A stretch of 64,000 bases of DNA, taken from contig JAUIHT010000005.1 of the NCBI GenBank assembly GCA_030432235.1, positions 124,001-188,000 on the forward strand, in the 5' to 3' direction. The notes under the pieces are model-generated. The model made no database searches. It worked only from the letters and a program-made list of their open reading frames with translations, and had not been told where the DNA came from. Positions within the stretch are counted from its first letter, which is position 1, and every line of letters begins with the position of its first letter. The translations under genes and the position numbers were made by a program. This document shows, in pieces, positions 8,965 through 48,711 of this stretch. The DNA is from Verrucomicrobiia bacterium (GTDB taxonomy: Bacteria > Verrucomicrobiota > Verrucomicrobiia > Opitutales > Cerasicoccaceae).

Positions 8965-9097
8965 TATCTTGTGGGTTTATGTCTTTTGGGTTGTGCCCGG
9001 GGCGGATAGGACGCTGGTACGGGCAGGGTCGTTTGTTTTGTTTTAGTCGAAAGCGATAAGCTCAAAGCTGAAAGCGGGATTGAATGGGCAAAAACAA

Positions 9098-9138
9098 AAA
9101 AGTCTAAAGCCGGTGGATTCCGTATGCTTTAGACTTTT
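9098..9138 (-). terminator. terminator between rpsO and pnp
   Basis: A perfect 13-bp inverted repeat (AAAAGTCTAAAGC at 9098-9110, complement at 9126-9138) with a 15-nt loop. On the minus strand it is followed by TTTTTTGTTTTTG. It lies just past the rpsO stop. Flanking bases extend the symmetry imperfectly with GCTGAAAGC/GCTTTCAGC, linking it to the AAAG/CTTT repeats seen elsewhere in the window. Confidence 0.8.
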
Positions 9139-9157
9139 GGCTTTCAGCTTTCGGCGC

Positions 9158-9424
9158 TCAGTGGCGCAGGCCGAGCTTCTGGACGATAGCGTTATAACGC
9201 TCGAGCTCGTTGCGTTTGAGATAGTTGAGGAGCTTCCGGCGGCGGTTGGTCATGTGGATGAGGCCGCGGCGGGAGTGGAAGTCCTTGCGGTGCTCGCGCA
9301 GGTGATCCGTCAGGTGGGTGATGCGTGCGGTCAGCAGCGCGATCTGAACCTCGGGAGAGCCGGTATCGCCCTCCTTGGTTGCGTGTTCTTTGATGATTTC
9401 TTCTTTGTTTACTACTTCTGGCAT
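9158..9424 (-). CDS. rpsO: 30S ribosomal protein S15
   Basis: 88 residues, the normal S15 length. S15 binds the 16S rRNA central domain early in 30S assembly. Diagnostic motifs: '[19 protein letters not shown]', '[15 protein letters not shown]', '[10 protein letters not shown]'. Expression is probably autoregulated, as in other bacteria; the upstream leader at 9425-9600 is rich in hairpins. There is no clear Shine-Dalgarno in front of the ATG (sequence reads ACGACCTATG). Confidence 0.98.
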
Positions 9425-9600
9425 AGGTCGTTTTTGGTTTCACGGCTGATAACCCCGGACTACCGGGGCCGCATCCCTCGCAGCGGAGCCAGGGATGCCG
9501 CTGGACCGGAACCGAAGCCCCGGCCAACCGCGGAAGCAGGCTGCTCGACGCAACCGACCTCTAGCGTAAGGCGTGGAAAGTTGGCATCTTGCGGCGAATT
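9425..9600 (-). promoter_or_regulatory. structured rpsO leader, candidate S15 autoregulatory element
   Basis: The 200 bases between rpsO and the sulfotransferase gene hold no ORF but several strong helices: CCCCGG/CCGGGG (9453-9458 with 9463-9468, tetraloop), GCATCCCT/AGGGATGC (9471-9478 with 9491-9498) and further GC-rich pairings near 9500-9525. They lie 30-100 bases upstream of the rpsO start on its own strand. In several phyla S15 represses its own mRNA through leader structures that differ by lineage. Assignment here is inference. Confidence 0.45.
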
Positions 9601-9625
9601 TGCAAGCTAAAAGCGTTAGGTGCTT

Positions 9626-10537
9626 TTACCACTCGTAGCCGACCTTGACCAGAGCCTGATAAGCCTCTTCACCGAACCAGCGGACGGACTCGTCGTTGAA
9701 GTATTTCGGCCATTCGCCGGCCGCGCCACGGCGCTCGAAGGCAGTAGGCCGCGCTTTGGGAAATCCCGGCGTAGTTAAATCATCCAGGGGCAGGCATTCT
9801 GCGGGGTCCACGTCAAGGAAGCGAAAGAGGACGTCTTTGCTGGCCTGGAAATCATCCAGAAGTGACTCGTACTTGAGCAAATGGATATTCTCCGGAATTT
9901 CGTCACGCTGCGCCTTCTGGAATTGCTCAAAGTTGCTTTCAACCGCTTGGGCCCAATTCCAGGAGAATCCGCGAACAAAGGATTCGCAGCTCAGCAACTC
10001 CTCGGGGTTCTCATCAAAGTAGTGGGGATTTTCGACGAATTTCGCGTGCAGGGCCAGCAGCTCGGGATTGTCCAGGAAGGGCCGCTTGCTTTGTTGATTC
10101 AGCATATGATAGGCGGCGCTGACCAAGGTGTCGCGGCCGTCCCGCATAATGATGATGTAATGCGCCTTGCGCAGGGTGAACGGCAGCACTTGTTCCGGCG
10201 TGCGGTCGCCCAACCAGACGACTTGATCGAAGTCCTTGGTTTCGGCTTTGCGAACTTTTTCCACGGCCAGGATATGGCGGCGCACCAGCGCCTCGTAGCC
10301 GTCGCGCAAATCGTCCAGATGCTGGAAGTAGGTCAGCAGGCCGTGACGGGTATTCGCCATTTTTTCCAGGCCACGATCCATGAACTCCCAGTGGAACTCA
10401 CCGGAGACCGAGATGCGCGGATGCTTGTCCATCAAGCGCTCCAGCCACGTCGTCCCGGATTTCATCGAACCCCGAATGAAAAAATAGCGATAATCCTCAG
10501 ATTCCTTCACAACAGCCCATGGATGAAGCACATGCAC
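9626..10537 (-). CDS. sulfotransferase family protein
   Basis: 303 residues. 'GSMKSGTTWLERLM' (residues ~23-36) is the 5'-phosphosulfate-binding loop and 'YIIIMRDGRDTLVSAAYHM' (~132-150) the 3'-phosphate-binding motif of PAPS-dependent sulfotransferases. The enzyme would transfer sulfate from PAPS to a carbohydrate or other hydroxyl or amine. The acceptor cannot be inferred. Its 5' end lies about 30 bases from the dif-like site, so this is the last host gene before the prophage. Confidence 0.85.
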   Translation of the reverse strand: MHVLHPWAVVKESEDYRYFFIRGSMKSGTTWLERLMDKHPRISVSGEFHWEFMDRGLEKMANTRHGLLTYFQHLDDLRDGYEALVRRHILAVEKVRKAETKDFDQVVWLGDRTPEQVLPFTLRKAHYIIIMRDGRDTLVSAAYHMLNQQSKRPFLDNPELLALHAKFVENPHYFDENPEELLSCESFVRGFSWNWAQAVESNFEQFQKAQRDEIPENIHLLKYESLLDDFQASKDVLFRFLDVDPAECLPLDDLTTPGFPKARPTAFERRGAAGEWPKYFNDESVRWFGEEAYQALVKVGYEW

Positions 10538-31714: not shown

Positions 31715-33574
31715 ATGAAGGCTGACGCAATCGATTTGCTCATAGAACAGAAACCCGACCTCAAGGGCGCTCGCGAAAAATTGGAAGCGATGCAACCGGG
31801 GGCCTATTGCATGCACCGCAGCTGGGGCTTCGGAGTCATCCAAGGCTACGATGACGCCGAGAACAAGCTCATTATTGATTTTGAGGAAGGCAAACAAGGC
31901 CACCTGATGGACCCGGCGTTCTGCGTGGACAAGCTGGAGATCCTCCCCACGACCAATATCCTCGTACGCCGTCGTACCGAGCCCGAAGTCATCGAAGAGA
32001 TGATCAAGAAGCGCCAGGGAGACCTGGTGGCCGAGATCCTTTCCCACATGCCCGACCAGGAAGCCAGCCCGACCGAGCTGGAGAACCTCCTCGGCCGCCT
32101 GCTCGGCCCGACCAAGTTCAAGAAGTGGTGGACCAACACCAAGAAGATACTGGTCAAGGATTCACGCATCGCCACGCCTTCCAAGAAGACCGACCCGTAC
32201 ATTCTCCGTGAGGAACCGCTTATGCCCGAGCAGGAAATCCTTGAGGACTTTTACGTCTACAAGCAGCCCAAGAAGAAGATTCTGCTGGCTGAAAAGCTCT
32301 ACCAGATTTCCGACAACGTCGACGAAATCAAGGAAGACCTGCCTAATATTTTCGACCACTTGACTACCGCGATCAAGGACGCCAAGGGCCTTTCCCAGGC
32401 CGAGCGTTTGCACGGTGTCTGGGTCCGCAACAATCTTGCCCGCACCCTCCACGAGGACCCGGAGGCCATCGAGCCGACTTCGAAGTCGCTCATCCTTGAA
32501 ACCGAGGACCTCAGCGAGCTGGCCGACGAAATCCCTGCCGCCTACCAGAAGCGTTTCCTCGACCTGCTGACCCGCGTCTTCCCCGAAGACTGGAAGAGCG
32601 TCATCATCGGCACGCTCAAGGACAGCTCCGGCAAGATGACCAGCGAAACGATCAACTTCATGGTCGAGCGCGAATGCATGGACCTCGTCGCCGAAAGCTT
32701 CCGCAAGTGGCTGGCCGAGCAAAGCATGAAGGGGCCGGTCCTCTTCTGGGTGGTCAAGAACCGCAACTCCCGCAAGTACGCCAAGATCGTCGACGGCCTC
32801 GTCGGCCCGCGCCTGCTCTCGGCCATGTTCTACGCCATCGACTACGAAGCGCTCCAGAACACCACTTCCCGCCGCATCCAGCTCGCCGACGCCCTCATGG
32901 ACGACCAGGAGCTCATCGGCGACCTCCTCGAAAACGCCAGCGAGGAAGAAGCGCGTGACCTGGCTCAGAGCCTCCTGCTCAACCAGGGCTTCGAGGACCT
33001 GACCAAGAAGTCGCTCATGGCTCGCTTCATCAAGCGTTTCCCCCGCGTGCAGTCCCTGCTCTCCGGCGATGCCGAAGAAAAGGCAGACGAGCTTATCGTC
33101 TCCCAGAAGAGCCTCGACGTGCGCAAGAAGGAGTACGACGACCTTATCAACGTCCGCATTCCCGAGAACAAGGAGGCCATCCAGATTGCCCGCGAGCACG
33201 GCGACTTGCGCGAAAACGCCGAGTACAAGATGGCCCGTCAGGACCAGGAAACGCTCATGGCTCGCAAGGCTCAGCTCGAGTCCGACTTTGGCCGTGCCCG
33301 TGTGACCGATTTCTCCGATTCCTCCAAGGAAATGGTGGGCGTCGGCTCCATCGTCGAGCTTACCCAGCCCAGCGGCACCGCCCATACCTACGCCATTCTC
33401 GGTGCTTGGGACAGCGATCCGGACAACGCGATCCTCTCCTACCAAACGCCGCTTGGCCAGGCCCTGTTGACTCATCGTGTCGGCGAAACCGTCACCACCG
33501 AGATCGACAACAACACCGAGACCTGGACCATCAAGAGCATCCAGCGTTGGGCAGATAGCGGACGTAAGCTGTAA
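31715..33574 (+). CDS. very long GreA/GreB-domain protein
   Basis: 619 residues. Only the last ~160 are GreA-like: a coiled-coil N-terminal part with 'GDLRENAEYKMARQDQETLM' (the acidic DxxxNxE tip that enters the RNA polymerase secondary channel) and the FKBP-like C-terminal domain with 'VGSIVELT' and 'ISYQTPLGQALL'-like sequence. The first ~450 residues are a large helical region with 'PGAYCMHRSWGFGVIQGYDD' near the start, which resembles a short beta domain fused in Verrucomicrobiota GreA homologues. It probably rescues backtracked polymerase; the long extension may contact other partners. Confidence 0.88.
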   Translation: MKADAIDLLIEQKPDLKGAREKLEAMQPGAYCMHRSWGFGVIQGYDDAENKLIIDFEEGKQGHLMDPAFCVDKLEILPTTNILVRRRTEPEVIEEMIKKRQGDLVAEILSHMPDQEASPTELENLLGRLLGPTKFKKWWTNTKKILVKDSRIATPSKKTDPYILREEPLMPEQEILEDFYVYKQPKKKILLAEKLYQISDNVDEIKEDLPNIFDHLTTAIKDAKGLSQAERLHGVWVRNNLARTLHEDPEAIEPTSKSLILETEDLSELADEIPAAYQKRFLDLLTRVFPEDWKSVIIGTLKDSSGKMTSETINFMVERECMDLVAESFRKWLAEQSMKGPVLFWVVKNRNSRKYAKIVDGLVGPRLLSAMFYAIDYEALQNTTSRRIQLADALMDDQELIGDLLENASEEEARDLAQSLLLNQGFEDLTKKSLMARFIKRFPRVQSLLSGDAEEKADELIVSQKSLDVRKKEYDDLINVRIPENKEAIQIAREHGDLRENAEYKMARQDQETLMARKAQLESDFGRARVTDFSDSSKEMVGVGSIVELTQPSGTAHTYAILGAWDSDPDNAILSYQTPLGQALLTHRVGETVTTEIDNNTETWTIKSIQRWADSGRKL

Positions 33575-33678
33575 TAAGTGCTGAATGCTAAGCGCTAAAC
33601 GCTGAATTTTTTATATCGTACGCAGATTACGACGTATTTTTAATTCAGCATTTAGAACTTAGCGTTTAGCGTTTATTC

Positions 33679-34614
33679 ATGCCCGCGCCTTGGGAAATCC
33701 TTAAACTGCTCGCCGACCCCACCCGGTTGCGCCTGGTTCACCTGTTGGCTCAGGAGGAACTGTCCGTGGCCGAGTTGCAGGAAATCCTGGAGATGGGCCA
33801 GTCGCGCATTTCCACCCATCTTGGGCTGCTGCGCGGCGCGGAGTTGGTGCTGGACCGCCGTCAGGGCAAGAAGGCGTTTTATCGGCTCAACGAAGACCTG
33901 GGCGAGCCTGACAAGCAGCTCATCGACGCTGCCTTGAAGGCCGTGGCCCGTGATCGTCAGACGCGTGAGGACGCGGAGACGTTGGCCCGCGTGCTGGACA
34001 AACGCCGTCGCGCCTCCGAGCAGTATTTCAATCAGGTGGCCGGTAGATTGGGGAAGAATTACTGTCCGGGCCGATCCTGGGAGGCCATTGGGCACGCCCT
34101 GCTGCAGTTGACACCCCGCATCGTCATCGCCGACCTCGGCGCCGGTGAAGGCGTGCTCTCCCAGCTCCTGGCGCAGCGGGCCGAGCGTGTCCACTGCATC
34201 GACAATTCTCCGAAGATGGTCGAGTTTGGCCGAGAGCTGGCCAAGAAGCACGGCATCGAAAATCTCGACTACGCCCTCGGCGATATCGAGGAAGTGCCGC
34301 TGAAGAAGAACTCGGTCGACCTCGCACTGCTTAGCCAGGCTCTACACCATGCACAGAAACCGGCCCGTGCCATCGCCGAGGCTTTTCGCATCCTCAAGCC
34401 CGGCGGACGGCTCGTCATCCTCGATCTGCGCGAGCATAACTTCGAGAAGGCCCGCGAGCTCTACGCGGATGTCTGGCTGGGCTTCGCCGAAAATCAACTC
34501 TACCGCTGGCTCAAAGAAGCCGGGTTTACCCAGCCGGACGTCACCGTCGTAGCCAAAGAGGAACAAGAACCCTACTTCGAGACGCTGCTGGCTACAGCCG
34601 TCAAACCGGGCTGA
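33679..34614 (+). CDS. ArsR-family regulator fused to a SAM-dependent methyltransferase
   Basis: 311 residues. Residues 1-~90 are a winged helix of the ArsR type ('LADPTRLRLVHLLAQEELSV', 'GQSRISTHLGLLRGAELV'). Residues ~140-300 are a class I methyltransferase with 'VIADLGAGEGVLSQLL', 'VDLALLSQALHHA' and 'ILKPGGRLVILDLREH', near the UbiE/MetW group. The fusion occurs in several phyla, where it may couple metabolite sensing to a methylation step. Effector unknown. It follows an imperfect inverted repeat at 33587-33672. Confidence 0.88.
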   Translation: MPAPWEILKLLADPTRLRLVHLLAQEELSVAELQEILEMGQSRISTHLGLLRGAELVLDRRQGKKAFYRLNEDLGEPDKQLIDAALKAVARDRQTREDAETLARVLDKRRRASEQYFNQVAGRLGKNYCPGRSWEAIGHALLQLTPRIVIADLGAGEGVLSQLLAQRAERVHCIDNSPKMVEFGRELAKKHGIENLDYALGDIEEVPLKKNSVDLALLSQALHHAQKPARAIAEAFRILKPGGRLVILDLREHNFEKARELYADVWLGFAENQLYRWLKEAGFTQPDVTVVAKEEQEPYFETLLATAVKPG

Positions 34615-34692
34615 TGAATCTGCCACCTTGCGGGCAGCGAGCAATGCGAGCGATGGGGCACAGCCCCATGATCGTCCAGTGCGGTCACGCAC

Positions 34693-35061
34693 TTATTTTT
34701 TAAACCAGTCGCCTTTTTCGTTCTGGAGCCACAGGCCGGTGGCGGCGCGCTGCGAAATCTGGCGGGCGCGTTGCACGCCGACTTCCTTCGGAGTGCTCTT
34801 CGACTTCTGTGCGATAGCGGAATAGACCTGCTTGCGATCATCATTCTCCGCCTTGACGAGTTTCTCCTGATCGGCGCTGAGGGAACCGCGCGGTGACAGG
34901 TAGCCTTCGTTGTTCTCGCCGATGAGCCCCTGCTTCCAGAGGGCTTCGATTTTCGGCTGGCGCTTCTGCATATCAGACTTGATCGCATTCAAGTCCTGCC
35001 CGAAGGCGGAACCGGCAATCAGGAAGGCGAAAAGAAAAATAAAGCTGCGGGCAATGTTCAT
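34693..35061 (-). CDS. YdbL (DUF1318) family periplasmic protein
   Basis: 122 residues with a signal peptide (MNIARSFIFLFAFLIAGSAFG). 'IKSDMQKRQPKIEALWKQGL', 'IGENNEGYLSPRG' and 'RARQISQRAATGLW' are characteristic of YdbL. In E. coli, ydbL lies with ynbE and ydbH, and YdbH-YnbE form an intermembrane bridge for phospholipid transport. Here a YnbE-like gene is directly upstream on the same strand, but no ydbH is seen next to them. Confidence 0.85.
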   Translation of the reverse strand: MNIARSFIFLFAFLIAGSAFGQDLNAIKSDMQKRQPKIEALWKQGLIGENNEGYLSPRGSLSADQEKLVKAENDDRKQVYSAIAQKSKSTPKEVGVQRARQISQRAATGLWLQNEKGDWFKK

Positions 35062-35088
35062 GGCTTGGGCGAATTTGAAGTTGGCTAA

Positions 35089-35322
35089 CTACTGGGTACT
35101 GCTGTGGGAGGGCTCGGCGGGCGGCTCCTCGTAGTCGATGAGGGTGGATTGCTGGTCGAGGTCGCCGAAGAAGTTGTTCAGCTCGCGGTCAACCTTCAGG
35201 TTCACATCCACGGTGATGTGTATCGGCTTCACCTCGCTGACCGTTTCGACGCGGTGTGTGGTTTCGCAGCCTGCGACGAGGATGCACGCGGAAGCGAGGA
35301 TGGAGGCCAATGCCTTTTGCAT
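35089..35322 (-). CDS. YnbE-like outer-membrane lipoprotein
   Basis: 77 residues from ATG 35322; an upstream start (35358) would precede the signal peptide with 12 residues. A lipoprotein signal ends in 'ILVAGCETT' (lipobox LVAG-C). The mature part has 'PIHITVDVNLKVDRELNNFF', the short conserved segment of YnbE. In E. coli, YnbE multimers join the YdbH bridge between membranes. Its downstream partner is the YdbL-like gene. The missing ydbH may lie elsewhere in the genome. Confidence 0.82.
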   Translation of the reverse strand: MQKALASILASACILVAGCETTHRVETVSEVKPIHITVDVNLKVDRELNNFFGDLDQQSTLIDYEEPPAEPSHSSTQ

Positions 35323-35366
35323 ACGATTGATTAAGGTACGGAATGAAACGCTAGTCAATCAGACAT

Positions 35367-36848
35367 CTACATAGCGTCCCTGTTCCCCACGGCAGCTTCG
35401 GATGGCCAGTCATCGCTGCGAAAAGGTGCCGCGGGCAAGCCGGCGGTATTGAACAAGCTGGCCTCCGGTGTATCGATCCAGGCATAGCGCACTGCCACCG
35501 GCTCGGAAACCTCGGTACTCCAAACCAGCAGCGTATCACCCTCGATTTTGGCTTCAGCGGGATGAAATACCCGTTCTTCCCCGGCGACCTCGAAGCCTCC
35601 TTCGTCGACCTTGAGGACAAGCGCACTCTCCGCGGGCGCAAAATGCACCCGCAGGCGCGCATCTTCCTGCGATACGGACGCGAATACCGGCCCACTATCG
35701 ACGACCGGTTTGTCGTAGGTCCGGGCCAGCGCCAATAATGCCGCGCGCTCCCCGACCGGCCGTTTGTTGGCTGGGTGATTGTCTTTGGCTTCGCCGACAT
35801 CGATCGTCACGACCATGCCCGTATTCGGCAGGGACAGCGTGTCCGCCTGGGCTTCGCGCAAGCCTACGATGTCAGCGGGAGCAGACGTTTCAAATCCCGG
35901 AAGCTGCACAAAATAAAACGGGATATCCCCTTCGCCCCAAACTTCACGCCAGGATTGAATCATGAGGGGAAAGAGCATAGCGTACATTTGCGGATGCCGC
36001 TTGTCGCTTTCGCCCTGATACCAAAGGAAGCCGCGGATGGCGAACGGAACCACTTTGTCGATGTAGCGCCCATAGAGGGCTCCGATTTGCGCCGATTTAA
36101 AAACTTCCCAGCCTGGGTCGAGCGCACCCTTGTACTCCTCACCCCGGGCGACAGCTCGGTCGTGCTTTCTCTTGCGGTAGGCCAGTTCGTGTTCATAGCG
36201 CTCCCGTGTGTAGACCTCGTTGCCATAGGCCCACAGCTCAGGATTGCTTTTCAGCGCGTCACGGGAGGTCCAGCGAAAGGCGCTGCTGCCGCCAATGGAA
36301 AAGGAAAGCAGGCCGATAGGCACACCCAGCGCTTCCTGAAGCCGGGTGGCGAAGACATACGCCACGGCGGAAAACTCACTGACGGTCTGCGGAGAGCAAA
36401 CGTCCCAGGGCTTGCCCAGGCCATTGATACCTAGCAGCCGAATCTCGGGATAGTTGGCTGCGGCAATCTCCTTCTCGGCATCGAGCATCCTTTTCACGTC
36501 AAACTTCATGTTGGATTGGCCGGAGCATACCCAGACCTCGCCTATCAAAACATCCTCGATGGACACGCCTTCTCTGTCGCTTTTTACCGTCAGTGTGCGC
36601 CCTTCCCTGCTGGCTTCCATTGGGTCCAGGTCCAGCATCCAGTTGCCCTCGGCATCGGCCTGGGCGGTCTTGCTTTGTCCCGCAAAGTCCACCGTGACGG
36701 TCGATGAGGGCGCTGCCCTACCCCAGATGGGTACCGGCATGTCGCGCTGCAGCACCATGTGGTCGCCAAAGGGCGGTGCAAGCTTAAGGGCGTGGGCCAA
36801 CGATGGTATTATGAGGATAAGAACAAGCGAGATGGGTATGCGATTCAT
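35367..36848 (-). CDS. secreted sialate O-acetylesterase-like protein
   Basis: 493 residues from ATG 36848, giving signal peptide MNRIPISLVLILIIPSLAHA. SGNH-hydrolase motifs: 'VWVCSGQSNMKF' (nucleophile Ser), 'SIGGSSA', 'FLWYQGESD' and 'IDVGEAKDNHPANKRPVGER' (His/Asp region). It would remove acetyl esters from sialic acids or, in verrucomicrobia, more often from acetylated plant or algal glycans. Carbohydrate-active neighbours are few here, so the substrate is open. Confidence 0.9.
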   Translation of the reverse strand: MNRIPISLVLILIIPSLAHALKLAPPFGDHMVLQRDMPVPIWGRAAPSSTVTVDFAGQSKTAQADAEGNWMLDLDPMEASREGRTLTVKSDREGVSIEDVLIGEVWVCSGQSNMKFDVKRMLDAEKEIAAANYPEIRLLGINGLGKPWDVCSPQTVSEFSAVAYVFATRLQEALGVPIGLLSFSIGGSSAFRWTSRDALKSNPELWAYGNEVYTRERYEHELAYRKRKHDRAVARGEEYKGALDPGWEVFKSAQIGALYGRYIDKVVPFAIRGFLWYQGESDKRHPQMYAMLFPLMIQSWREVWGEGDIPFYFVQLPGFETSAPADIVGLREAQADTLSLPNTGMVVTIDVGEAKDNHPANKRPVGERAALLALARTYDKPVVDSGPVFASVSQEDARLRVHFAPAESALVLKVDEGGFEVAGEERVFHPAEAKIEGDTLLVWSTEVSEPVAVRYAWIDTPEASLFNTAGLPAAPFRSDDWPSEAAVGNRDAM

Positions 36849-36915
36849 GAATATTACACACGTGCACAATTTCGGTAGTGCTTCAAGTAAAAAGAGACAG
36901 AGGGGGCACGGATGC

Positions 36916-37797
36916 TCAGGCGGTGGCGGCGTGACCGCTGAGTTTGAAATGCGAGCTTTGCTCGTCAGCGTGGTAGCTGGAACGCACCAGCGGGCCAGAC
37001 TCCACCACGTCGAAACCGATGCTCAGCCCGAACTCTTTCCAGTGGGCAAACTCCTCCGGCGTGACCCAGCGGTCAATGGCCGCATGCTTCGAGGTGGGCT
37101 GCAAATATTGGCCGATGGTGAGGATGTTGACATCCACCTTGCGCATGTCGCGTAGGAGTTGCTCGACCTCCTCGACCTTTTCGCCGATGCCGAGCATAAT
37201 GCCGCTCTTGGTCACGAAGCCACGGCTTTTGGCGTGCTCCAGCACCCAGAGCGAGCGGTCGTAACGTGCGGTCTTGCGGACCGTCCGCTGCAGGCGTTCG
37301 ACGGTTTCAAGGTTGTGGTTAAGGATGTCGGGCTTGGCCTCCAAAAGCGTGTCCAGGTGCTCAGCCTGGCCCTTGAAGTCCGCCGGGAGCACTTCGATGG
37401 CGGTGTTCGGGCAGCGGTGGCGAATGGCGCGAATGGTCGCCGCCCAGACGGAGGCTCCGCCGTCCTTGAGGTCGTCGCGGGCCACGGAAGTGACCACCAC
37501 GTGGGTCAGGTTCATGCGGGCTACGCTGTCGGCCACGCGGGCGGGCTCGCCGAGGTCGAGCTCGGTGGGACGCCCGGTGTTAATGGCGCAAAAGGTGCAG
37601 GAGCGCGTACAGATGTTGCCCAGGATCATGACCGTGGCGGTGCCGCGGCTCCAGCACTCGCCCATGTTCGGGCAGCGGGCACTCTCGCAGACGGTGTGCA
37701 GGCTGTGCTCGTCCACGTTGCGGCGCGTCTCCATGTAGCCGGGACCGGACGGGAGCTTGGCGCGCAGCCAATCGGGCTTCTTCTTAATATCGACCAT
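36916..37797 (-). CDS. lipA: lipoyl synthase
   Basis: 293 residues from ATG 37797. Two [4Fe-4S] ligands sets are intact: 'CESARCPNMGEC' (auxiliary cluster) and 'CTRSCTFC' (radical SAM CxxxCxxC). 'GIMLGIGEKVEEVEQLLRDM' and 'TIGQYLQPTSKHA' are further family signatures. It inserts two sulfur atoms into octanoyl-protein to make the lipoyl cofactor. A longer start (37839) would run into the terminator upstream. lipB is not adjacent. Confidence 0.96.
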   Translation of the reverse strand: MVDIKKKPDWLRAKLPSGPGYMETRRNVDEHSLHTVCESARCPNMGECWSRGTATVMILGNICTRSCTFCAINTGRPTELDLGEPARVADSVARMNLTHVVVTSVARDDLKDGGASVWAATIRAIRHRCPNTAIEVLPADFKGQAEHLDTLLEAKPDILNHNLETVERLQRTVRKTARYDRSLWVLEHAKSRGFVTKSGIMLGIGEKVEEVEQLLRDMRKVDVNILTIGQYLQPTSKHAAIDRWVTPEEFAHWKEFGLSIGFDVVESGPLVRSSYHADEQSSHFKLSGHAATA

Positions 37798-37802
37798 TGT
37801 TA

Positions 37803-37834
37803 AACCGCCCAAGGTGACGCAGCCTTGGGCGGTT
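37803..37834 (-). terminator. terminator upstream of lipA
   Basis: Stem AACCGCCCAAGG with complement CCTTGGGCGGTT around a short loop; on the minus strand it is followed by TTTAACAATG, the lipA start. It would end transcription of the PEP-CTERM gene just before lipA. Confidence 0.6.
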
Positions 37835-37881
37835 GTCAATGGAGAGCCGCAGGATGGATGCTTTATCCGAAGCGTCCGTTT

Positions 37882-38622
37882 TTATCTTTTTCGATGGCGG
37901 GAGGCAATCCATAGCCCGGAGGCCAAAACAATAATCAATGCGGTTGTGGCCGGTTCGGGGATGGAATTGGTGACGCTGATGTTATCCACGGAAAAGTCGA
38001 CATCGCCTGCCGAACCCGCGGCATGGAAGAGGAGCTTGCCGTACTGGCCGTTGGTCTGGGCGTTGGGATAATAGCCCAAGCCGCTGGCCGAGCCGGTTTC
38101 CTGCACGACTCCCGCCACGTTCACCCGGGACACCGTGACATCATAGGTCTGGGCCACCGGGTCGAAGATGAACTCAGTGAAATAGGGAGTGCTGAAAGTG
38201 AGGTTGATCCCGGTATCCACGAAGGAAGTCCCATCGGAGGCCATCCAGGGGATATCACCATTACTGCCGTCCCCGTTCAGTCTGAGCTGACCGGCAAAGG
38301 CTCCGTAGTCGCCATTAGCGATGGCAAAATTACCGCTGGAAGGCGGATCCGCGCCGAAGTCAATCTGCACATACAGGGACATCCTGTAGGAGGCACTGAC
38401 CAGATCGAGCCCAGCGGTGTTGTTCTTGAAAATACGGTAGGCCTCCTGGCCCACGGCCGTCGTGCCCATGCCGGCCTGCTGTCCGCCGAGTGCTTCGTCC
38501 AGGAACGTGGGGGCCGATTGCGTATACCCGACAGGCGCCACCCAGTCGTCGCCCCAATCCGACGTATCTTCACCGACCTCAAAGGTTTGTATAATCGACC
38601 CAAGGCCCAAGGCAGTCTGCAT
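37882..38622 (-). CDS. PEP-CTERM protein whose signal-peptide codons contain an in-frame TGA
   Basis: The open frame from ATG 38622 gives 246 residues: a beta-rich domain resembling jelly-roll or concanavalin-like secreted domains and a C-terminal 'IPEPATTALIIVLASG' plus membrane span and 'SRHRKR' tail, the PEP-CTERM signal. Read backwards in frame, codons 38670-38623 give MKL, then TGA (38661-38659), then LCSLVSLIGLLS before this ATG. Those residues would make a normal signal peptide. The only remaining ATG removes most of it. The gene is therefore probably inactivated by a single nonsense change (CGA/TGG-like to TGA), unless it is a sequencing error or read through. Confidence 0.75.
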   Translation of the reverse strand: MQTALGLGSIIQTFEVGEDTSDWGDDWVAPVGYTQSAPTFLDEALGGQQAGMGTTAVGQEAYRIFKNNTAGLDLVSASYRMSLYVQIDFGADPPSSGNFAIANGDYGAFAGQLRLNGDGSNGDIPWMASDGTSFVDTGINLTFSTPYFTEFIFDPVAQTYDVTVSRVNVAGVVQETGSASGLGYYPNAQTNGQYGKLLFHAAGSAGDVDFSVDNISVTNSIPEPATTALIIVLASGLWIASRHRKR

Positions 38623-38848
38623 ACTGAGCAGGCCAATGAGCGATACGAGAGAGCATAATCAGAGTTTCATAAGGGCCAACAAATCATATTACTGCTAATT
38701 GTACAACAACCTAATGGCCCTAATATCAAATAGGCTTTATTGCCTATATATTGATTTACAAAAATCCTCAGGCCACCGGCGGACCTGCTTTCCTTGCTCG
38801 CAGCTACCCACGCTTGACCTTGCCGCCCGGCCCCGCCCCAATGCTTGC

Positions 38849-41188
38849 GTGGAAATCGATACACAGGAACGCCGCGTCAAGCTGAGCGCGAAGGACTTCG
38901 CTACCTTTGGGCTACCGGGGGCGATGACCTCCATGCGCGCGCAGGCCTGGCGGGCGGCAGTCGGCACGGCCTGGCACAACGATCTGCGGAATCAAACTGC
39001 CGCCGAAGATACCACCGCGCGCTTCGAGGTGCCTTTCAACGTCCTCTATCCGCAGGATGGCTGGACCTTCGAAATCGGCGGCCGCATCGACCAGCTTTTG
39101 CCCACGGCGGTTGGTTCGCTGTTGCGCGAGATTAAAACCGTTACCCGCAACCTGCCCGAGTCCGTCGACAGCCTGCGGGCCGACTACCCCGAGCACTTTC
39201 TGCAACTGGCCTGCTACCTGGCGCTGGCGCCCTTCGACCCGAACCTGCAAGACCTCGGCGAGCTGTCCGGCGAGTTGGTCTTCGTCGACTACCGGGCGGG
39301 CGTCCTGCAGAACGTCCCCGCGCCGGAAAACTGGAAGGCGGACTTTGAGGCTCAGGCCGCACGCCTGGCTGCCTGGCTGGAAGAACGCCGAGAACACGAA
39401 AAGCGCCTGCGCCGCTTGGACATTCCGCCGGCCTTCGCGGAGCTGCGCCCGGAACAAGCCGCACCGCTGCACAAGCTGCAGCAATCCCTGGCAGCGGGCG
39501 GCATCGCCCTCTTTCAGGCCCCGACGGGCTTCGGCAAAACCGGTTTGGCCCTGCAGGCTGCGTTGGAACAGGTCCGCAACGGCAAATATGACCGCGTGCT
39601 GTTCCTCTCCGGCAAGTCCACCGGGCAGATGGCCGCCATGCGCCAGCTAGAGGCCTTTTCCAAAAACAACTCCAACGGCCCGCACTGCTTTCAAATGCGT
39701 TCGAAGCGGGAGCACGCCGAGCGCTGTCCCCTGCCCCGCTGCGATGGGCGCAAGAGCTGCCAGGAAAGCCTGCGCGCCGCCCCACCCGGCCTCACGCTTT
39801 CCCCAAGCCGTTTTTTGCAGGGTGGCTCCCTGCGCCTGGACGGCGTGCTGAGCCTCTCGGCGGAGTGCGGCCTGTGCCCCTACGAGATATCTCGCGCTGC
39901 TCTGCCCGGCGCCGAGGTATGGGTCTGCGACTACAATTACATCTTTTCGCCGCCGCACCGGGGCACCTTCGACAACCAGCTCGACTTTCGTTCGGCGCGC
40001 ACCTGCCTCATCGTCGACGAGGCGCACAACCTCCCGAGCCGCGTCGAGGACGTCTTTTCCTTTGCTGCCAGTGCCGGCGAGGCGGTTTACATCGTCAACC
40101 AACTCCGGCTGCTCGGGGCCTGGGGCAAAATCATCGCCGCCTGGGAGGCCTGGGCCGACTTTCTCGACAAGCTCAAACCCAAGGACCGCCACGAGAGCCT
40201 CGTCAGTTACGAGGCCGCCGATGCCCTCGAAGCGCTCACACAGGCCACCGGCGAAGCCCAGCTCGATTGGGATACCATCCCGGATGAGTTCGCCGAGCGA
40301 CTGTTCGCGCCCTACTGGTGGCTGGAAATCCTGCGCACCGAGGGGCTGGCGCATCTGGTCTGGACGCGGGCCGCCGGCGAGCTGCGCGTGGACTGTCTCG
40401 ACGCCGCCTCGGCCATCGGTCCGCGCCTGCGTGAGTTCGGTGCTGCGCTGCTGATGTCCGCCACCCTCGACCCGCTGGATGTCTTCCGGGACAGTGCGGG
40501 TCTCGACGCCAAAGAGACACAAACGGTAAGGGCCGGAGCGCCCTGGCGGGAGGAAGGCTACCGCGTGGCCATCGACGCCCGCATCGATACCCGCTTCCGC
40601 CGCCGGGCCGACTACTACGCGGTCACCGCGCAAACCGTCGCGACATTGGCGGACGCCACCGCGACGCCCGTGGCCGTCTTCTTCCCCAGCTACCAGTACG
40701 CCGAGACCATCCGCGCCTACCTCGGGGCTGAGCAGCCCGGGCTGACCGTCGCCATGCAGCCGCGTGCCATCGACCTCGACGGCCAGATGCGCTTCATCGA
40801 CGAGGCCCTGCTGACCGCCCACGCGCTGTTCTTCGTCCTCGGCAGCAGTTTCAGCGAAAGCATCGACCAGCTCGGCGGCAAAATCGAGGCGGCGCTCGTC
40901 GTCGGCCCCGCCCTGCCGGAAGTCTCACCGCTGCAAAAAGCGCGAGAGACCGCGCACGCCCATGCCGGCCGCGACGAAGCCTTCCGTCGCGCCTGGATTG
41001 TCCCGGCCATGCAGAAGATCAACCAGGCCCTCGGACGCCTCGTCCGCGCCCCTGGCCAGCAAGCGCGTGTCGTGCTGCACTGCCGCCGCTTCCGTGACGA
41101 GGCCTACCGCAACGCCCTCGATGTCGACTTCACCCCCGAGGAAACCTTGAGAGGCGACGAGGATTTGCTGTTGTGGCTGCGGGGCTAA
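38849..41188 (+). CDS. PD-(D/E)XK nuclease fused to DinG/XPD-type helicase
   Basis: 779 residues from GTG 38849; an in-frame TTG at 38699 would add 50 unlikely residues. Residues ~1-190 are a RecB/Cas4-type nuclease: 'GGRIDQL' (Asp), 'REIKTVT' (ExK) and 'HFLQLACYLAL' (QxxxY). The helicase follows: Walker A 'APTGFGKTGLAL' (~224), cysteines 'CPLPRCDGRKSC' and 'CGLCPYE' (Fe-S cluster, ~290-345), DEAH 'IVDEAHNL' (~388) and motif VI 'QALGRLVRAP' (~726). Fe-S superfamily 2 helicases unwind 5' to 3'. The combination suggests coordinated unwinding and cutting in repair or defence. Neighbours give no defence context. Confidence 0.88.
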   Translation: MEIDTQERRVKLSAKDFATFGLPGAMTSMRAQAWRAAVGTAWHNDLRNQTAAEDTTARFEVPFNVLYPQDGWTFEIGGRIDQLLPTAVGSLLREIKTVTRNLPESVDSLRADYPEHFLQLACYLALAPFDPNLQDLGELSGELVFVDYRAGVLQNVPAPENWKADFEAQAARLAAWLEERREHEKRLRRLDIPPAFAELRPEQAAPLHKLQQSLAAGGIALFQAPTGFGKTGLALQAALEQVRNGKYDRVLFLSGKSTGQMAAMRQLEAFSKNNSNGPHCFQMRSKREHAERCPLPRCDGRKSCQESLRAAPPGLTLSPSRFLQGGSLRLDGVLSLSAECGLCPYEISRAALPGAEVWVCDYNYIFSPPHRGTFDNQLDFRSARTCLIVDEAHNLPSRVEDVFSFAASAGEAVYIVNQLRLLGAWGKIIAAWEAWADFLDKLKPKDRHESLVSYEAADALEALTQATGEAQLDWDTIPDEFAERLFAPYWWLEILRTEGLAHLVWTRAAGELRVDCLDAASAIGPRLREFGAALLMSATLDPLDVFRDSAGLDAKETQTVRAGAPWREEGYRVAIDARIDTRFRRRADYYAVTAQTVATLADATATPVAVFFPSYQYAETIRAYLGAEQPGLTVAMQPRAIDLDGQMRFIDEALLTAHALFFVLGSSFSESIDQLGGKIEAALVVGPALPEVSPLQKARETAHAHAGRDEAFRRAWIVPAMQKINQALGRLVRAPGQQARVVLHCRRFRDEAYRNALDVDFTPEETLRGDEDLLLWLRG

Positions 41189-41258
41189 AGCGGTAGGAGC
41201 GGTCGGCACAAGGATTTGCATACAACAGAACCTACCACACCAAAAATAGGAGTATTCT

Positions 41259-41774
41259 ATGAAAACTACCTTCCTTCTAGTCGCGCTAATACCCATCTTT
41301 TCCTCAATTTCACATGCGCTGAGTCTAGTACCTTTTGAGGAAGCGATAGAAGGTATCGATGCGTTGATAGTCGGTGATTTTCAAAAGCTCACAGGGAAAT
41401 CCATCTCTATTATCTATAAAGATGGAGAATTAACGGATGAGGGGGAATTTGTTCAAATTCACATAATCAATGCCGTTGCCGTAGTGAGCCTAAATGAGCC
41501 TGTAGTTTCTCATAATAAGACACTCAACAAGGATCTTCTGTTATCGCTGCTGGAAGTTTCCGATGATAATAAATCATTTTACTGCGATGTTTACATTAGC
41601 GCACCTACACTGACCTCTTTGAGAAAAGAAGAGACCAAGCTGTGGCTCATTGAGAAAGATACTATGAGTGGAGGCTTTGTAGCGAACCTGCTTTCGAGCG
41701 ATTATGTTGAAACAACTGAGATAATCTCGTCTGTAAAATCAGGGACATTCGCAGATGGTTCTACGGTTCCATAG
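41259..41774 (+). CDS. hypothetical secreted protein
   Basis: 171 residues. Signal peptide MKTTFLLVALIPIFSSISHA. The mature part has 'FEEAIEGIDALIVGDFQKL', 'VVSHNKTLNKDLLLSLLEVS' and 'LWLIEKDTMSGGFVANLLSS', consistent with a small beta domain; no family recognised. The gene is visibly A/T-richer than its neighbours. It starts 70 bases after the helicase stop with AGGAGTATTCT in front, one of the few host starts with a Shine-Dalgarno-like GGAG. Confidence 0.65.
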   Translation: MKTTFLLVALIPIFSSISHALSLVPFEEAIEGIDALIVGDFQKLTGKSISIIYKDGELTDEGEFVQIHIINAVAVVSLNEPVVSHNKTLNKDLLLSLLEVSDDNKSFYCDVYISAPTLTSLRKEETKLWLIEKDTMSGGFVANLLSSDYVETTEIISSVKSGTFADGSTVP

Positions 41775-41861
41775 CAACGAGCGACTCGTCTTGGAAATGG
41801 CTTGTGACAAAGGATTCTGCCTGATTGACCTATCTACCCCACGCACTACCATGCGCTGATC

Positions 41862-42479
41862 ATGAAGGGCATTGCGTTAGGCATCTACGCGGTCGTGTTT
41901 GTGGTCTGCGCCATTAACCCCTACGACCGGGGCGTGTGGTGGGCGGAAAATGTGCCCATCGTGCTACTGGTGGCGGGCGTCTGGTGGGTGTCGCGCTACC
42001 ATAAGTTCTCCGGGCTGAGTTGGTGCCTGATGCTCGTGCTGCCCGTGTTGCACACCATTGGCGGGCACTACACCTTCGAGCGTGTGCCCTTCGGCTGGGT
42101 CACGGACCTGCTCGGCTTCGAACGCAATCACTATGACCGCATCGCGCACTTCAGCGTCGGGTTCTACGCCTACGCCATCGCGGAGTTCACCGAGGCCAAG
42201 GGCATTATCCGGCGGCGCGCCTTCGCGCTGATGTTCGCCGTGTTTTCCATCTTCACCGTCGCGGCAGTCTACGAAATCTTCGAATGGCTGTACGCCCTGA
42301 GCGCGGACCCCGAGGCGGGCATCGCCGTGCTGGGTTCGCAGGGCGACATCTGGGACGCGCAAAAGGACATGCTGGCCGACGGACTCGGCGCGATTTGCGC
42401 GGCGGCACTGTATGCGTTCGTCTACCGCAAGGGAGCGCCCGCTGTGGACTCAGGCAGGCTGGAAGGCCATGACGGTTGA
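41862..42479 (+). CDS. DUF2238 (YjdF-like) membrane protein
   Basis: 205 residues with about six transmembrane helices. 'HTIGGHYTFERVPFG', 'RNHYDRIAHFSVGFYAYAIAE' (in parts), 'YEIFEWLYAL' and 'GSQGDIWDAQKDMLADGLGA' are the conserved blocks of DUF2238, with the histidine and acidic residues that line the membrane interior. Function is not established for the family. Starts at ATG 41862. Confidence 0.9.
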   Translation: MKGIALGIYAVVFVVCAINPYDRGVWWAENVPIVLLVAGVWWVSRYHKFSGLSWCLMLVLPVLHTIGGHYTFERVPFGWVTDLLGFERNHYDRIAHFSVGFYAYAIAEFTEAKGIIRRRAFALMFAVFSIFTVAAVYEIFEWLYALSADPEAGIAVLGSQGDIWDAQKDMLADGLGAICAAALYAFVYRKGAPAVDSGRLEGHDG

Positions 42480-42593
42480 TTCAGCAGCAGGCGTAAAAAT
42501 ATCCTGCTTTTTAGGAAAACTTAATCAGCCATTAACGTTCCTTCTGCTATCATAGCAGTCATGGATGGGAAAATAATCAGCCATCAGCGGGGA

Positions 42594-43178
42594 ATGCTTA
42601 CCCGCATCATTCTTTTTTCTATCGTATGGGTGGCGGGTGCGGCATCCGCCTCGGCCATCCTCACACTGCAAATCAATACGGGCTCCAAGACCGTTAAGTT
42701 TGTTGGGACGGGTCCTTACACTGACCTGGTGGCGGATGAGACTTATACTTACAAGGTTAGATTCAGAACGAACACCACGACGACCGGGAGCTACGTCGAT
42801 ATCGGTGCAGCAAAAGGCATGGTTGATGTCGGTGGTCTGGACAACACCATCCTGGGCTCTTTTATCCAGATGAAGAGCACCGGGATGGTAATGGATGTTC
42901 AGTTTTCTTTTTCGAGTCTCGGTGGCATAACCGAAGGCTACCTGACTGGGAGCAACATCAGTTATAGCTACGCCGAGTCCAACCTATTTACAACTTATCT
43001 TGGAGATGGCTCGAACATCAACGGCACAACCCTGGTCCCGTTTATGCCGAACCCGGAGCTGACCTTCCCGGATGACCCGAGCCCGAGCATTTCGATCCAA
43101 GTCGTGCCGGAGCCCCGTACCTGGGCCTTCGTGGTCGCGATTGTGGGACTGGCCTGGCTGATGAAGCGGCGGCGCTGA
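42594..43178 (+). CDS. PEP-CTERM sorting-domain protein
   Basis: 194 residues from ATG 42594 (an earlier ATG at 42561 is possible). Signal peptide MLTRIILFSIVWVAGAASASA, a Thr/Gly/Ser-rich beta domain, and the C-terminal 'VVPEPRTWAFVVAIVGLAWL' followed by MKRRR, a standard PEP-CTERM signal. It should be a substrate of the exosortase at 57754. No close similarity to the other three PEP-CTERM proteins outside the sorting signal. Confidence 0.88.
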   Translation: MLTRIILFSIVWVAGAASASAILTLQINTGSKTVKFVGTGPYTDLVADETYTYKVRFRTNTTTTGSYVDIGAAKGMVDVGGLDNTILGSFIQMKSTGMVMDVQFSFSSLGGITEGYLTGSNISYSYAESNLFTTYLGDGSNINGTTLVPFMPNPELTFPDDPSPSISIQVVPEPRTWAFVVAIVGLAWLMKRRR

Positions 43179-43244
43179 TTGCGACTCGTGTAATAGCCAC
43201 AGACTTGACTTGCTCTGGTGTGTTGGGCGTGCTTGATAGGCCCT

Positions 43245-43901
43245 ATGCTCAAAGTAGTCCAATGTTGGGATGACGGGGTCCAGTGGGACATCCCGCTCAT
43301 CGAGATCCTCCGTAAACATGGCGCCAAAGCCAGCTTCAACCTGAATGCCGCCACGCACAAGGAGCAACGGCACGGTGAGCATAAGCACAAGGATGTGCAG
43401 CTTGTGCAACGGCTGGCTCTAGCCGAGCTGCCGTCCGTATACGAGGGCTTCACCATCGCCAACCACGGCCTGGAGCACAAGCACCTCAGTGCGCTCTCCG
43501 AGGACGAAGCCCGTTACGAAATCCGGGAGAACCGCAAACGCCTGCAGGACATTTTTCAGCAACCCATCGAGGGGTTTGCTTACGCGTATGGCGATTACGA
43601 TGATCAAGCCATGCGCCTCATCGAGGAGGAGGGCCATTGCTACGCCCGCACCGTAAAGCACGTGCTACCGTGCATGCCGCCGGAGAGCCCCTTCGCCTTC
43701 CACCCGACGTGCAAGTTCAACGACCCGGAGTTTTTCCAACTCTACGAACGCGCCAAGACCGAGGGAGGCGTCTTCTACTTCTGGGGTCACTCCTATGAGA
43801 TGATCAGCCCGGAGATGTGGGCAGACTTCGAGGCGAAGATTCAGCACATCACCGAAGACCCCGAATCCGAATGGGAAGAGCTGGTCGCCCTCTTTAAATA
43901 G
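43245..43901 (+). CDS. polysaccharide deacetylase (NodB-like) family protein
   Basis: 218 residues from ATG 43245. 'VVQCWDDGVQWDIPLIEIL' carries the first Asp pair of the NodB fold, 'IANHGLEHKHLS' the His-rich metal site and 'FYFWGHSYEM' the last motif. No signal peptide, so it is probably cytoplasmic. It would deacetylate a carbohydrate; the substrate is unknown. The stop is directly followed by the ATG of the DUF1697 gene, suggesting one transcript. Confidence 0.88.
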   Translation: MLKVVQCWDDGVQWDIPLIEILRKHGAKASFNLNAATHKEQRHGEHKHKDVQLVQRLALAELPSVYEGFTIANHGLEHKHLSALSEDEARYEIRENRKRLQDIFQQPIEGFAYAYGDYDDQAMRLIEEEGHCYARTVKHVLPCMPPESPFAFHPTCKFNDPEFFQLYERAKTEGGVFYFWGHSYEMISPEMWADFEAKIQHITEDPESEWEELVALFK

Positions 43902-44435
43902 ATGCATACCACGATAGCATTGTTCCGGGGCATCAATGTCGGCGGCAAGAATCTGCTGCCAATGAAGGAGCTGGTCGCGGTGCTGGAATCGCTGGGCTTT
44001 GAGAATATAAAAACTTATATCCAGAGCGGCAATGTCGTCATGCTCAGCCGGACTGCCCCCGGTGCCAAGGAGGCCGGCACCATTGAAGATGCGATTGAAA
44101 AAGCCAAGGGCTTTCGCCCCGAAGTTTTCCTTTTGAGCGCGGCGGAGCTGACGGATGCGATTGCCGGGAACCCCTTTTCCATCGATACGGGAAAAGACGT
44201 CCATTTCTACTTTCTCAACGAACCGCCAGGCCGCCCTGATATGGCCCGTCTGGATTCGCTCAAGAGCTACACCGAGGATTTCGCCCTCAAGGGTTTGGTC
44301 TTTTACCTGTACGCCCCCGACGGCATTGGTCGCTCCAAGCTCGCCGCCGCCGTTGAGAAGGCGCTGGGTGTGCCCGTGACCGCGCGCAACGGCAACACCG
44401 TGCTGAAGCTCGCTGAGCTGGCGAAGGGATTGTAA
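43902..44435 (+). CDS. DUF1697 family protein
   Basis: 177 residues. 'TIALFRGINVGGKNLLPMKE' at the N-terminus, 'YIQSGNVV' and 'TARNGNTVLKLAEL' at the C-terminus are the defining DUF1697 blocks. The family is common in bacteria and has no established role; it is often found beside other housekeeping or transferable genes. Starts at the base after the deacetylase stop. Confidence 0.9.
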   Translation: MHTTIALFRGINVGGKNLLPMKELVAVLESLGFENIKTYIQSGNVVMLSRTAPGAKEAGTIEDAIEKAKGFRPEVFLLSAAELTDAIAGNPFSIDTGKDVHFYFLNEPPGRPDMARLDSLKSYTEDFALKGLVFYLYAPDGIGRSKLAAAVEKALGVPVTARNGNTVLKLAELAKGL

Positions 44436-44525
44436 TGTGACGTAACAGGTGCGGTGCTAATGTATGAGGGCGCTTGTTTGACGTGGCTATTTCTGATTCT
44501 ATGTGGCGAACCCCAAAGCGTTATC

Positions 44526-45065
44526 ATGAATGAGACACCTACGCCCAAGAATGCCGCACTGGAGGCGGCCAAACAGCTTCTGGTCAGCATGGTCGAATGC
44601 ATCGAAGAAATCCAGCAGCTTGCCCCTCGTTTCCCCGAGGAAATGTACGAAGCCCGCGACGCTTCGATGGAGCACATGCTAATGGCAGATTACCTGGAGC
44701 GCATGGCTCGCCACAATCAGCAACACCAACGCGAGATTGCCGCCATCCGTGCTTCAGTTGGCGCGGCCTGGCCGACCGATCCCCGCGACAGTAATCCCGT
44801 CACCGGAGAGCCCTACGCCAACACCTGGTGTCAGTGGTTTCTACTGGATGCCTTTCAGCACCGGGCGGAGCTGGTGGCCGAGTTGATCGGCTTAACGGAT
44901 GCGGAGTTCACCGCTGCGCCCGATCCCAAATATACGGCCAGCAACGAGCGCAGCATCAAGGACGTTTGCGAGCACGTCCTTCACGTGCAAAACTGGCAGA
45001 TGAACGGCATTCGGGATGCCGTGACGACTTACCGTAAACAGTCGAAAGACGACTCTAAGAGCTAG
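44526..45065 (+). CDS. DinB-like four-helix protein
   Basis: 179 residues from ATG 44526. Long helices with a histidine in 'HNQQHQREIAAIRASVG', 'DAFQHRAELVAELIGL' and 'HVLHVQNWQMNGIRDAV', spaced as in DinB/DUF664 metal-dependent proteins, some of which are thiol transferases. No catalytic assignment is possible. Its stop overlaps by four bases the stop of the convergent opcA-like gene. Confidence 0.7.
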   Translation: MNETPTPKNAALEAAKQLLVSMVECIEEIQQLAPRFPEEMYEARDASMEHMLMADYLERMARHNQQHQREIAAIRASVGAAWPTDPRDSNPVTGEPYANTWCQWFLLDAFQHRAELVAELIGLTDAEFTAAPDPKYTASNERSIKDVCEHVLHVQNWQMNGIRDAVTTYRKQSKDDSKS

Positions 45066-47855: not shown

Positions 47856-47997
47856 AAGGTTTTGCTAGGTAGTGCATGTTGTAGCGGTGGAAAAGAAAAA
47901 AAGACCGAGAAGCTGTTCAACAGAACAACTTGTTCACTCGGGAAAAAAGTCTAATAATAATGTTTGATATTTTATATTACTAATGCATTTTCAAGGT

Positions 47998-48711
47998 ATG
48001 GACCGATATCGAGCACCCCGACTAAAGGAAATGGCTCTGGGCGAGCGGCCACAGGAACGGCTGGAGCGCGTTGGCGCGAAGGCTTTGTCGGACACCGAGC
48101 TGCTGGCCATGCTTCTGCGCAGCGGCAACCGTGAGCTCGACGTGCTGGGCCTGTCCTCCACCCTGCTCTCACGGGCGGGCTCCCTGGGCAAGCTGTTGAC
48201 CTGGCATGAGGCGGACTTCCGTGCCATCCATGGTATCGGGCACGTCAAAGCCCTTCAGCTGCTGGCCGTCATGGAAATGGCCCGTCGCATCATTAGCCAG
48301 AGCTTCCCGGTGGACGTACTTCTGGATTCGGCGGAGGCCGTCTATCGTCACCTTGCACCCCACGTGGCCGGATTGGCGGTGGAGAAATTCTGGGTCTTGT
48401 GCCTGAATCGTAAAAACCGTCTCCTGCGCTTGGTGGAGGTTAGCTCCGGGACGGCCACGGCCAGCCTGGTGCATCCGCGAGAAGCGTTCCGGGAGGCCAT
48501 TCAGGCAGGCGCCAGCGCGGTGATCGCCGCCCACAACCACCCCAGCGGAGACCCGACACCGAGCCAGGCCGACATCCGTGCCACGCGGCAATTGAAAGAG
48601 GCATCACGGGTGGTGGACATTGAGTTGCTCGACCACGTAATTCTAGGATCCCCCAGTGCCGATCCGGCCGGTTGTGGCTATTATAGTTTTTGCGACGCGG
48701 GCTTATTGTGA
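47998..48711 (+). CDS. radC: RadC family JAMM protein
   Basis: 237 residues from ATG 47998 (an upstream ATG at 47983 adds five). The N-terminus is a helix-hairpin-helix region ('LLTWHEADFRAIHGIGHVKA'). The C-terminal metalloprotease-like domain has the JAMM motif 'HNHPSGDPTPSQAD'. Originally linked to recombinational repair, RadC has no settled activity. The intergenic stretch before it is very A/T-rich. Confidence 0.93.
   Translation: MDRYRAPRLKEMALGERPQERLERVGAKALSDTELLAMLLRSGNRELDVLGLSSTLLSRAGSLGKLLTWHEADFRAIHGIGHVKALQLLAVMEMARRIISQSFPVDVLLDSAEAVYRHLAPHVAGLAVEKFWVLCLNRKNRLLRLVEVSSGTATASLVHPREAFREAIQAGASAVIAAHNHPSGDPTPSQADIRATRQLKEASRVVDIELLDHVILGSPSADPAGCGYYSFCDAGLL

Follow-up and report, generated by a model that had tools for sequence, protein, structure and literature searches.

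The EndoDinG gene and its domains

The window (the whole stretch of DNA that was analyzed, 64,000 nucleotides) encodes, in one open reading frame, a protein that joins a RecB-family nuclease to an XPD/DinG motor. As judged from the sequence and a structure model, both parts are predicted to be intact, and four candidate cluster cysteines are present (Table 1). The fusion architecture is already known and was named EndoDinG in Cheng 2025 (PMC11981726); we use that name here. The frame is open upstream to 38699, and in all 30 homologues compared a start codon lies no more than four codons from the equivalent place.

Table 1. Position of the EndoDinG gene and its parts in the window.
Feature	Coordinates	Strand	Details
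EndoDinG gene	38849..41188	+	779 aa, GTG start
PD-(D/E)XK nuclease domain, residues 1-192	38849..39424	+	H43, E60, D81, E94, K96, Q119, Y123
Helicase motor domain 1, residues 193-400	39425..40048	+	Walker A GKT 229-231, DEAH 390-393; holds the Fe-S insert; edges by eye
Fe-S insert	39725..39880	+	candidate ligands C293, C298, C304, C343
Arch region, residues 401-505	40049..40363	+	least conserved part; edges by eye
Helicase motor domain 2, residues 506-779	40364..41185	+	SAT 537-539, QALGRLVR from 726

In the window protein, Helicase_C_2 (67 bits) and DEAD_2 (48.4 bits) both scored above their Pfam cut-offs, the helicase matches covering the C-terminal three quarters, and the Walker A, DEAH and motif VI features of an XPD/DinG motor were all found. 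The mean pairwise identity was lowest along the protein in the Arch region (0.245 among 83 homologues). The single frame, the Pfam helicase matches and the fold of the nuclease part (see below) bear out the preliminary description, which had placed a nuclease and an Fe-S DEAH helicase in one chain.

The nuclease domain

The domain search that had been proposed as a check gave no nuclease Pfam match for the window protein alone. When 30 family members were scanned singly, PDDEXK_1 was found at E ≤0.001 in 26, the window protein being among the four without it. In a whole-genome search of 88 genomes, PDDEXK_1 was above its cut-off in 30 frames of the EndoDinG gene (assigned to this gene by eye, by comparing coordinates).

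The full-length model, built from four sequences, was weak (pLDDT 57.9; too poor in the Arch region and motor domain 2), and the nuclease was therefore folded separately. The model of residues 1-189, also built from four sequences, had a pLDDT of 86. Its best structure match was 9KQH (Z 15.4, rmsd 3.6, 171 aligned), followed by human MGME1 (Z 13.4), the Cas4 protein SSO0001 (13.1), RecE (10.5), EXO5 (10.4) and AddA (10.3). The nuclease region is thus predicted to have the RecB/Cas4 fold and not another one.

We aligned 96 Verrucomicrobiota homologues, 83 from Opitutales and 13 from elsewhere in the phylum. Six residues of the nuclease set (H43, D81, E94, K96, Q119 and Y123) were invariant in all 96 and E60 was present in 95, so the loss of catalytic residues that had been named as a refutation was not seen. 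Three loci were left out: L006 and L012, which duplicate L157 and L162, and L204 (G278), where an EndoDinG-like gene at 7462-9740 is split between overlapping frames of 354 and 418 aa. The split at L204 may be a frameshift, an assembly error or a two-chain form.

The domain had also been called Cas4-type, which holds for the fold but not for the cluster. Four cysteines that hold a cluster are part of the definition of Cas4 in the relevant passage of PMC4176176. In the window protein C122 is the only cysteine of residues 1-192, and the Cas4 four-cysteine cluster is therefore absent. Across the alignment, the nuclease part has no cysteine in 31 of the 96 homologues and four in 4 of them.

Distribution among relatives

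Of 88 related genomes, 55 have the EndoDinG gene, usually as a single copy. Search matches occurred in 56, G025 giving a match to the helicase end only (25% identity, residues 534-770); with G025 counted, 52 of the 77 genomes that are at least 90% complete had a match. The median genome size was about 3.9 Mb with the gene versus 1.3 Mb without it, and the 33 relatives that lack it have mostly small, and some incomplete, genomes. Since it is missing in these 33, the gene is not essential to the group. Across the phylum, a match at E 1e-20 or better was found in 71 of 387 genomes, 57 of which belong to the window's order.

The window's genome also encodes a second, stand-alone DinG/YoaA-like helicase (contig C39, a 688-aa frame that is below the YoaA cut-off) and, on contig C42, a 997-aa frame with PDDEXK_1, which would be of AddB size.

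The Fe-S ligands and their loss

As read from the alignment, the Fe-S ligands erode while the nuclease and motor residues stay. In DEAH the D and E were invariant (96/96), as was the Walker A lysine, and the H was present in 95 of 96. Using a text-based rule, we observed that 54 of the 83 Opitutales homologues have four or more candidate cysteines (C4 and at least three early in the insert), 19 have an HCCC set (C4 and two further cysteines, with a histidine one or two positions ahead of a cysteine) and the remaining 10 have none, with no intermediates. We infer from its position that the histidine of the HCCC forms, such as that of the Cerasicoccus locus L001, is an Fe-S ligand. CCCC is the state of the window protein and of its nearest relative (G001), whereas the eight remaining rows of the window's family are HCCC. 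Outside Opitutales, 12 of the 13 homologues are CCCC, and L202 retains C4 alone.

The cluster-free homologues, which include the orthologues at L180 and L186, retain Walker A, DEAH, motifs III and VI and the nuclease set. Cluster loss required five changes on a 96-row tree made without the Fe-S columns, and likewise five (bootstrap 4-6) on a more careful tree built from 50 of these rows, where a single origin in one clade was not rejected (AU p 0.138); both trees were made with LG+G4 and carried long-branch warnings. The L202 gene (G381, 7424-9742, reverse complement), a non-Opitutales EndoDinG, also has DEGH in place of DEAH.

The role of the Fe-S cluster in XPD-family helicases (structure, unwinding, redox sensing) remains under debate. 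The Opitutales offer a ready comparison set for this question, with natural four-cysteine, three-cysteine-plus-histidine and cluster-free versions in which the nuclease and ATPase residues are intact.

Another way to read these losses is that the nuclease is the selected function, with the motor as its translocase or regulator and not a true helicase, and the Fe-S cluster dispensable. The ten cluster-free Opitutales homologues and L202, which lost the cluster cysteines and kept the nuclease and ATPase motifs, are what one would expect from this, and so is the S. aureus DinG, which, in the part of PMC10450177 that deals with it, is given as lacking the cluster and not unwinding DNA. The window protein keeps its four cysteines, however, and motifs III and VI are also kept. 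Moreover, CasDinG is described in the same source (PMC10450177) as unwinding DNA without a cluster, and a 5'-3' helicase activity is given for SaDinG in a passage of PMC12345164; loss of the cluster need not, for these two reasons, mean loss of unwinding. We regard this nuclease-led reading as rather unlikely.

The gene neighborhood and a RecO-like gene in relatives

At the window, the neighbors that could be assigned are a radical-SAM lipoyl-synthase-type gene, a DUF2238 gene, a polysaccharide deacetylase and a DUF1697 gene; three short neighbors had no Pfam match. Only two of the window's neighbors clustered with genes of other loci, the DUF2238 gene (four loci) and one gene with L124.

Neighborhoods were surveyed in other Verrucomicrobiota, as the preliminary description had suggested. 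Of 79 Opitutales loci (those with at least 1.5 kb of upstream sequence; four loci with less were left out), 37 have a RecO-like ORF that is on the same strand as EndoDinG and ends no more than 1.5 kb upstream of it. The window has no such neighbor, nor do 42 of the 79 Opitutales loci or any of the ten testable loci outside the order. The 37 linked loci comprise eight family codes (f1, f3, f4, f5, f8, f14, f20 and f23) and L003, out of about 16 family codes with the EndoDinG gene, f14 being over-represented. A RecO-like gene is present but falls outside the 37 at L185 and L186 (frame overlap of about 250 bases) and at L027 (flank of 1,459 bases), and it lies farther off at L170, L182 and L193 (1.7-2.3 kb) and at L134 and L135 (6.3 kb).

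The assignment of these proteins to RecO comes from matches that are all below the curated cut-off (best 29.7 versus 48.7 bits). RecO_N, RecO_C or TIGR00613, and no other family, was found in 7 of 10 sampled. None of the RecO models matched the proteins of L205, L163 and L003. A PDB search with a profile of 18 RecO-like proteins returned no RecO structure.

Over the same 79 loci, where the fetched stretch reached, the other same-strand neighbors were DUF502 (39), YbeY (34), PhoH (28), HIT (26) and an HD membrane protein (24). The window's genome has a cluster of HIT, PhoH, the HD membrane protein, YbeY, DUF502 and the RecO-like gene on another contig (L213, G000:C37, 6532-12857), without EndoDinG, and this RecO-like gene is the best TIGR00613 match of that genome (E 0.005). 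The simplest reading is that, in this genome, EndoDinG moved out of an ancestral cluster. For the EndoDinG group as a whole, the RecO-like neighbor offers a concrete candidate pathway.

YbeY and PhoH are RNA-related. That they adjoin the gene in relatives, and that CasDinG is described in part of PMC10450177 as unwinding RNA/DNA hybrids, would suit a protein acting mainly on RNA-DNA hybrids or R-loops. We consider this improbable, given that the nuclease matches (MGME1, EXO5, RecE, AddA) are DNA nucleases.

Defense and mobile elements

Since nuclease-helicase fusions occur in defense and the helicase part is matched by PADLOC typeIV_DinG (E 8.4e-63), we also evaluated the idea, raised in the preliminary description, that the protein acts in defense as an anti-phage or CRISPR-associated effector similar to CasDinG. 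Only one of the 10 neighboring proteins (31715-45065) matched PADLOC at 1e-5, the gene is widely present in single copy in relatives, and none of the 80 viral loci listed encodes EndoDinG. With the plasmid and phage records (below) likewise giving no support, we consider a defense role very improbable. Membership of a CRISPR system was rejected, as csf and cas genes are absent among the 10 neighboring proteins and the PADLOC match is limited to the helicase. The one neighboring protein that matched PADLOC, encoded at 33679-34614 (+), combines an ArsR-type regulator and a methyltransferase-like part. Its two halves match the PADLOC profiles Csa3 and mad2; these matches probably reflect domain type only.

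Viral sequences were scanned with two short peptide patterns, which gave at least 80 loci, and these were re-searched with the family profile. Most matches among the 80 loci listed fall between residues 163 and 270, while that of L090 spans 73-233. None of the 80 spans both domains with the family profile. Plasmid records gave 17 matches and phage records 14, all of them distant relatives (22-31% identity). On these listed matches a mobile origin of the gene was rejected. Full-length distant relatives (at least 80% of the query, 24-28% identity) were found in 1 of the 17 plasmid and 4 of the 14 phage records, so mobile cousins are possible.

Proposed role

Of the roles weighed here, maintenance of the genome in repair or replication is the best reading of the sequence data, with defense little supported. 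The predicted intact nuclease and motor, the wide single-copy presence and the recombination-type neighbor in relatives together lead us to favor, with some confidence, EndoDinG being a single-chain nuclease-helicase of genome maintenance. The repair role proposed earlier is thus favored by the distribution and by the RecO-like neighbor of relatives; the RecO-like link itself does not extend to the window.

By analogy with DinG/XPD relatives, the motor would run 5'-3' on single-stranded DNA and would open flaps, forks or ends, and the strand exposed in this way would then be cut by the nuclease. The gapped or resected DNA would most likely be handed to RecFOR/RecA repair or fork restart, because a RecO-like gene adjoins in about half of the sampled Opitutales families. 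EndoDinG would work alongside AddAB, as many of these genomes also encode PDDEXK_1 proteins that match AddA/AddB in size.

A more specific proposal, which we put forward as tentative, is that the Opitutales EndoDinG is a dedicated end or gap processor of RecO-centered repair, in transition from an Fe-S helicase-nuclease to a cluster-free nuclease-translocase by way of a Cys-to-His ligand swap; the conserved function would then be the cut, not unwinding that depends on Fe-S. The kind of protein is known, and what is new here is the erosion of the ligands and the link to RecO. Among the matches listed in our literature search, where RecO was queried only narrowly, we found no published report of either for EndoDinG.

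SOS control of EndoDinG was rejected, though on a weak test: no LexA-like box was found upstream of the gene in any of the 96 homologues. Elsewhere in the window, an exact TGTTC-N4-GAACA palindrome (47914-47927), which we take to resemble a LexA-type box, lies 55 bases before a RadC-family frame (47983-48711, +; NF000642, 224.8 bits), and radC may be under SOS control. Allowing up to two mismatches, this motif is not enriched over the whole window (15 found versus 22.45 expected).

Comparison with known systems

EndoDinG is a named subgroup of bacterial DinG-like proteins, with the Bdellovibrio bacteriovorus DinG as the example (Cheng 2025, PMC11981726). In the review's passages on this subgroup, it has an N-terminal PD-(D/E)XK nuclease (H, E, D, E, K) and an XPD/DinG motor with a CCCC cluster, the Fe-S domain is called conserved, and unpublished data are cited for the endonuclease activity of the Bdellovibrio protein (section 3.7). 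A shortened Arch and a motor domain 2 that lacks the seventh strand are further marks of the subgroup, in parts of the protein where our full-length model is poor. By its sequence the window protein is an EndoDinG, sharing the nuclease residues, the XPD/DinG motor and the CCCC cysteines. The Opitutales proteins differ from the EndoDinG of the review in that many have HCCC ligands or none, and their gene is often found beside a RecO-like one.

The closest structure is 9KQH ('Crystal structure of Finegoldia magna DinG in complex with ssDNA and ADPNP', released 2025-12-03). It was matched by a profile of 30 family members over positions 7-758 of 780 (E 2.6e-89) and by the full-length model (Z 18.2, identity about 20%). 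Finegoldia magna belongs to another phylum than the window's organism. The domain order is the same as in the window protein and four cysteines lie in the matching region; an Ala, either engineered or natural, occupies the position of D81 in the deposited chain.

The ExoDinG proteins (S. aureus and B. subtilis DinG) likewise carry a nuclease N-terminal to a DinG motor, but that nuclease is, as they are described, a 3'-5' exonuclease of the DEDD type with a fold unlike that of the window protein. An ExoDinG identity was rejected on the different N-terminal fold and on the TIGR01407 match, which is confined to residues 586-767. CasDinG (type IV CRISPR) has an XPD-family motor in common with the window protein and, as described, is a precedent for a vestigial Fe-S domain; it differs in being tied to type IV CRISPR and in having no such nuclease domain. 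Finally, the nuclease domains of Cas4, MGME1, EXO5, RecE and AddA/RecB share the fold of residues 1-189 and have no XPD motor. In Cas4, EXO5 and AddA a cluster is held with the nuclease, according to section 3.7 of the review (PMC11981726), whereas the nuclease of the window protein is without one.
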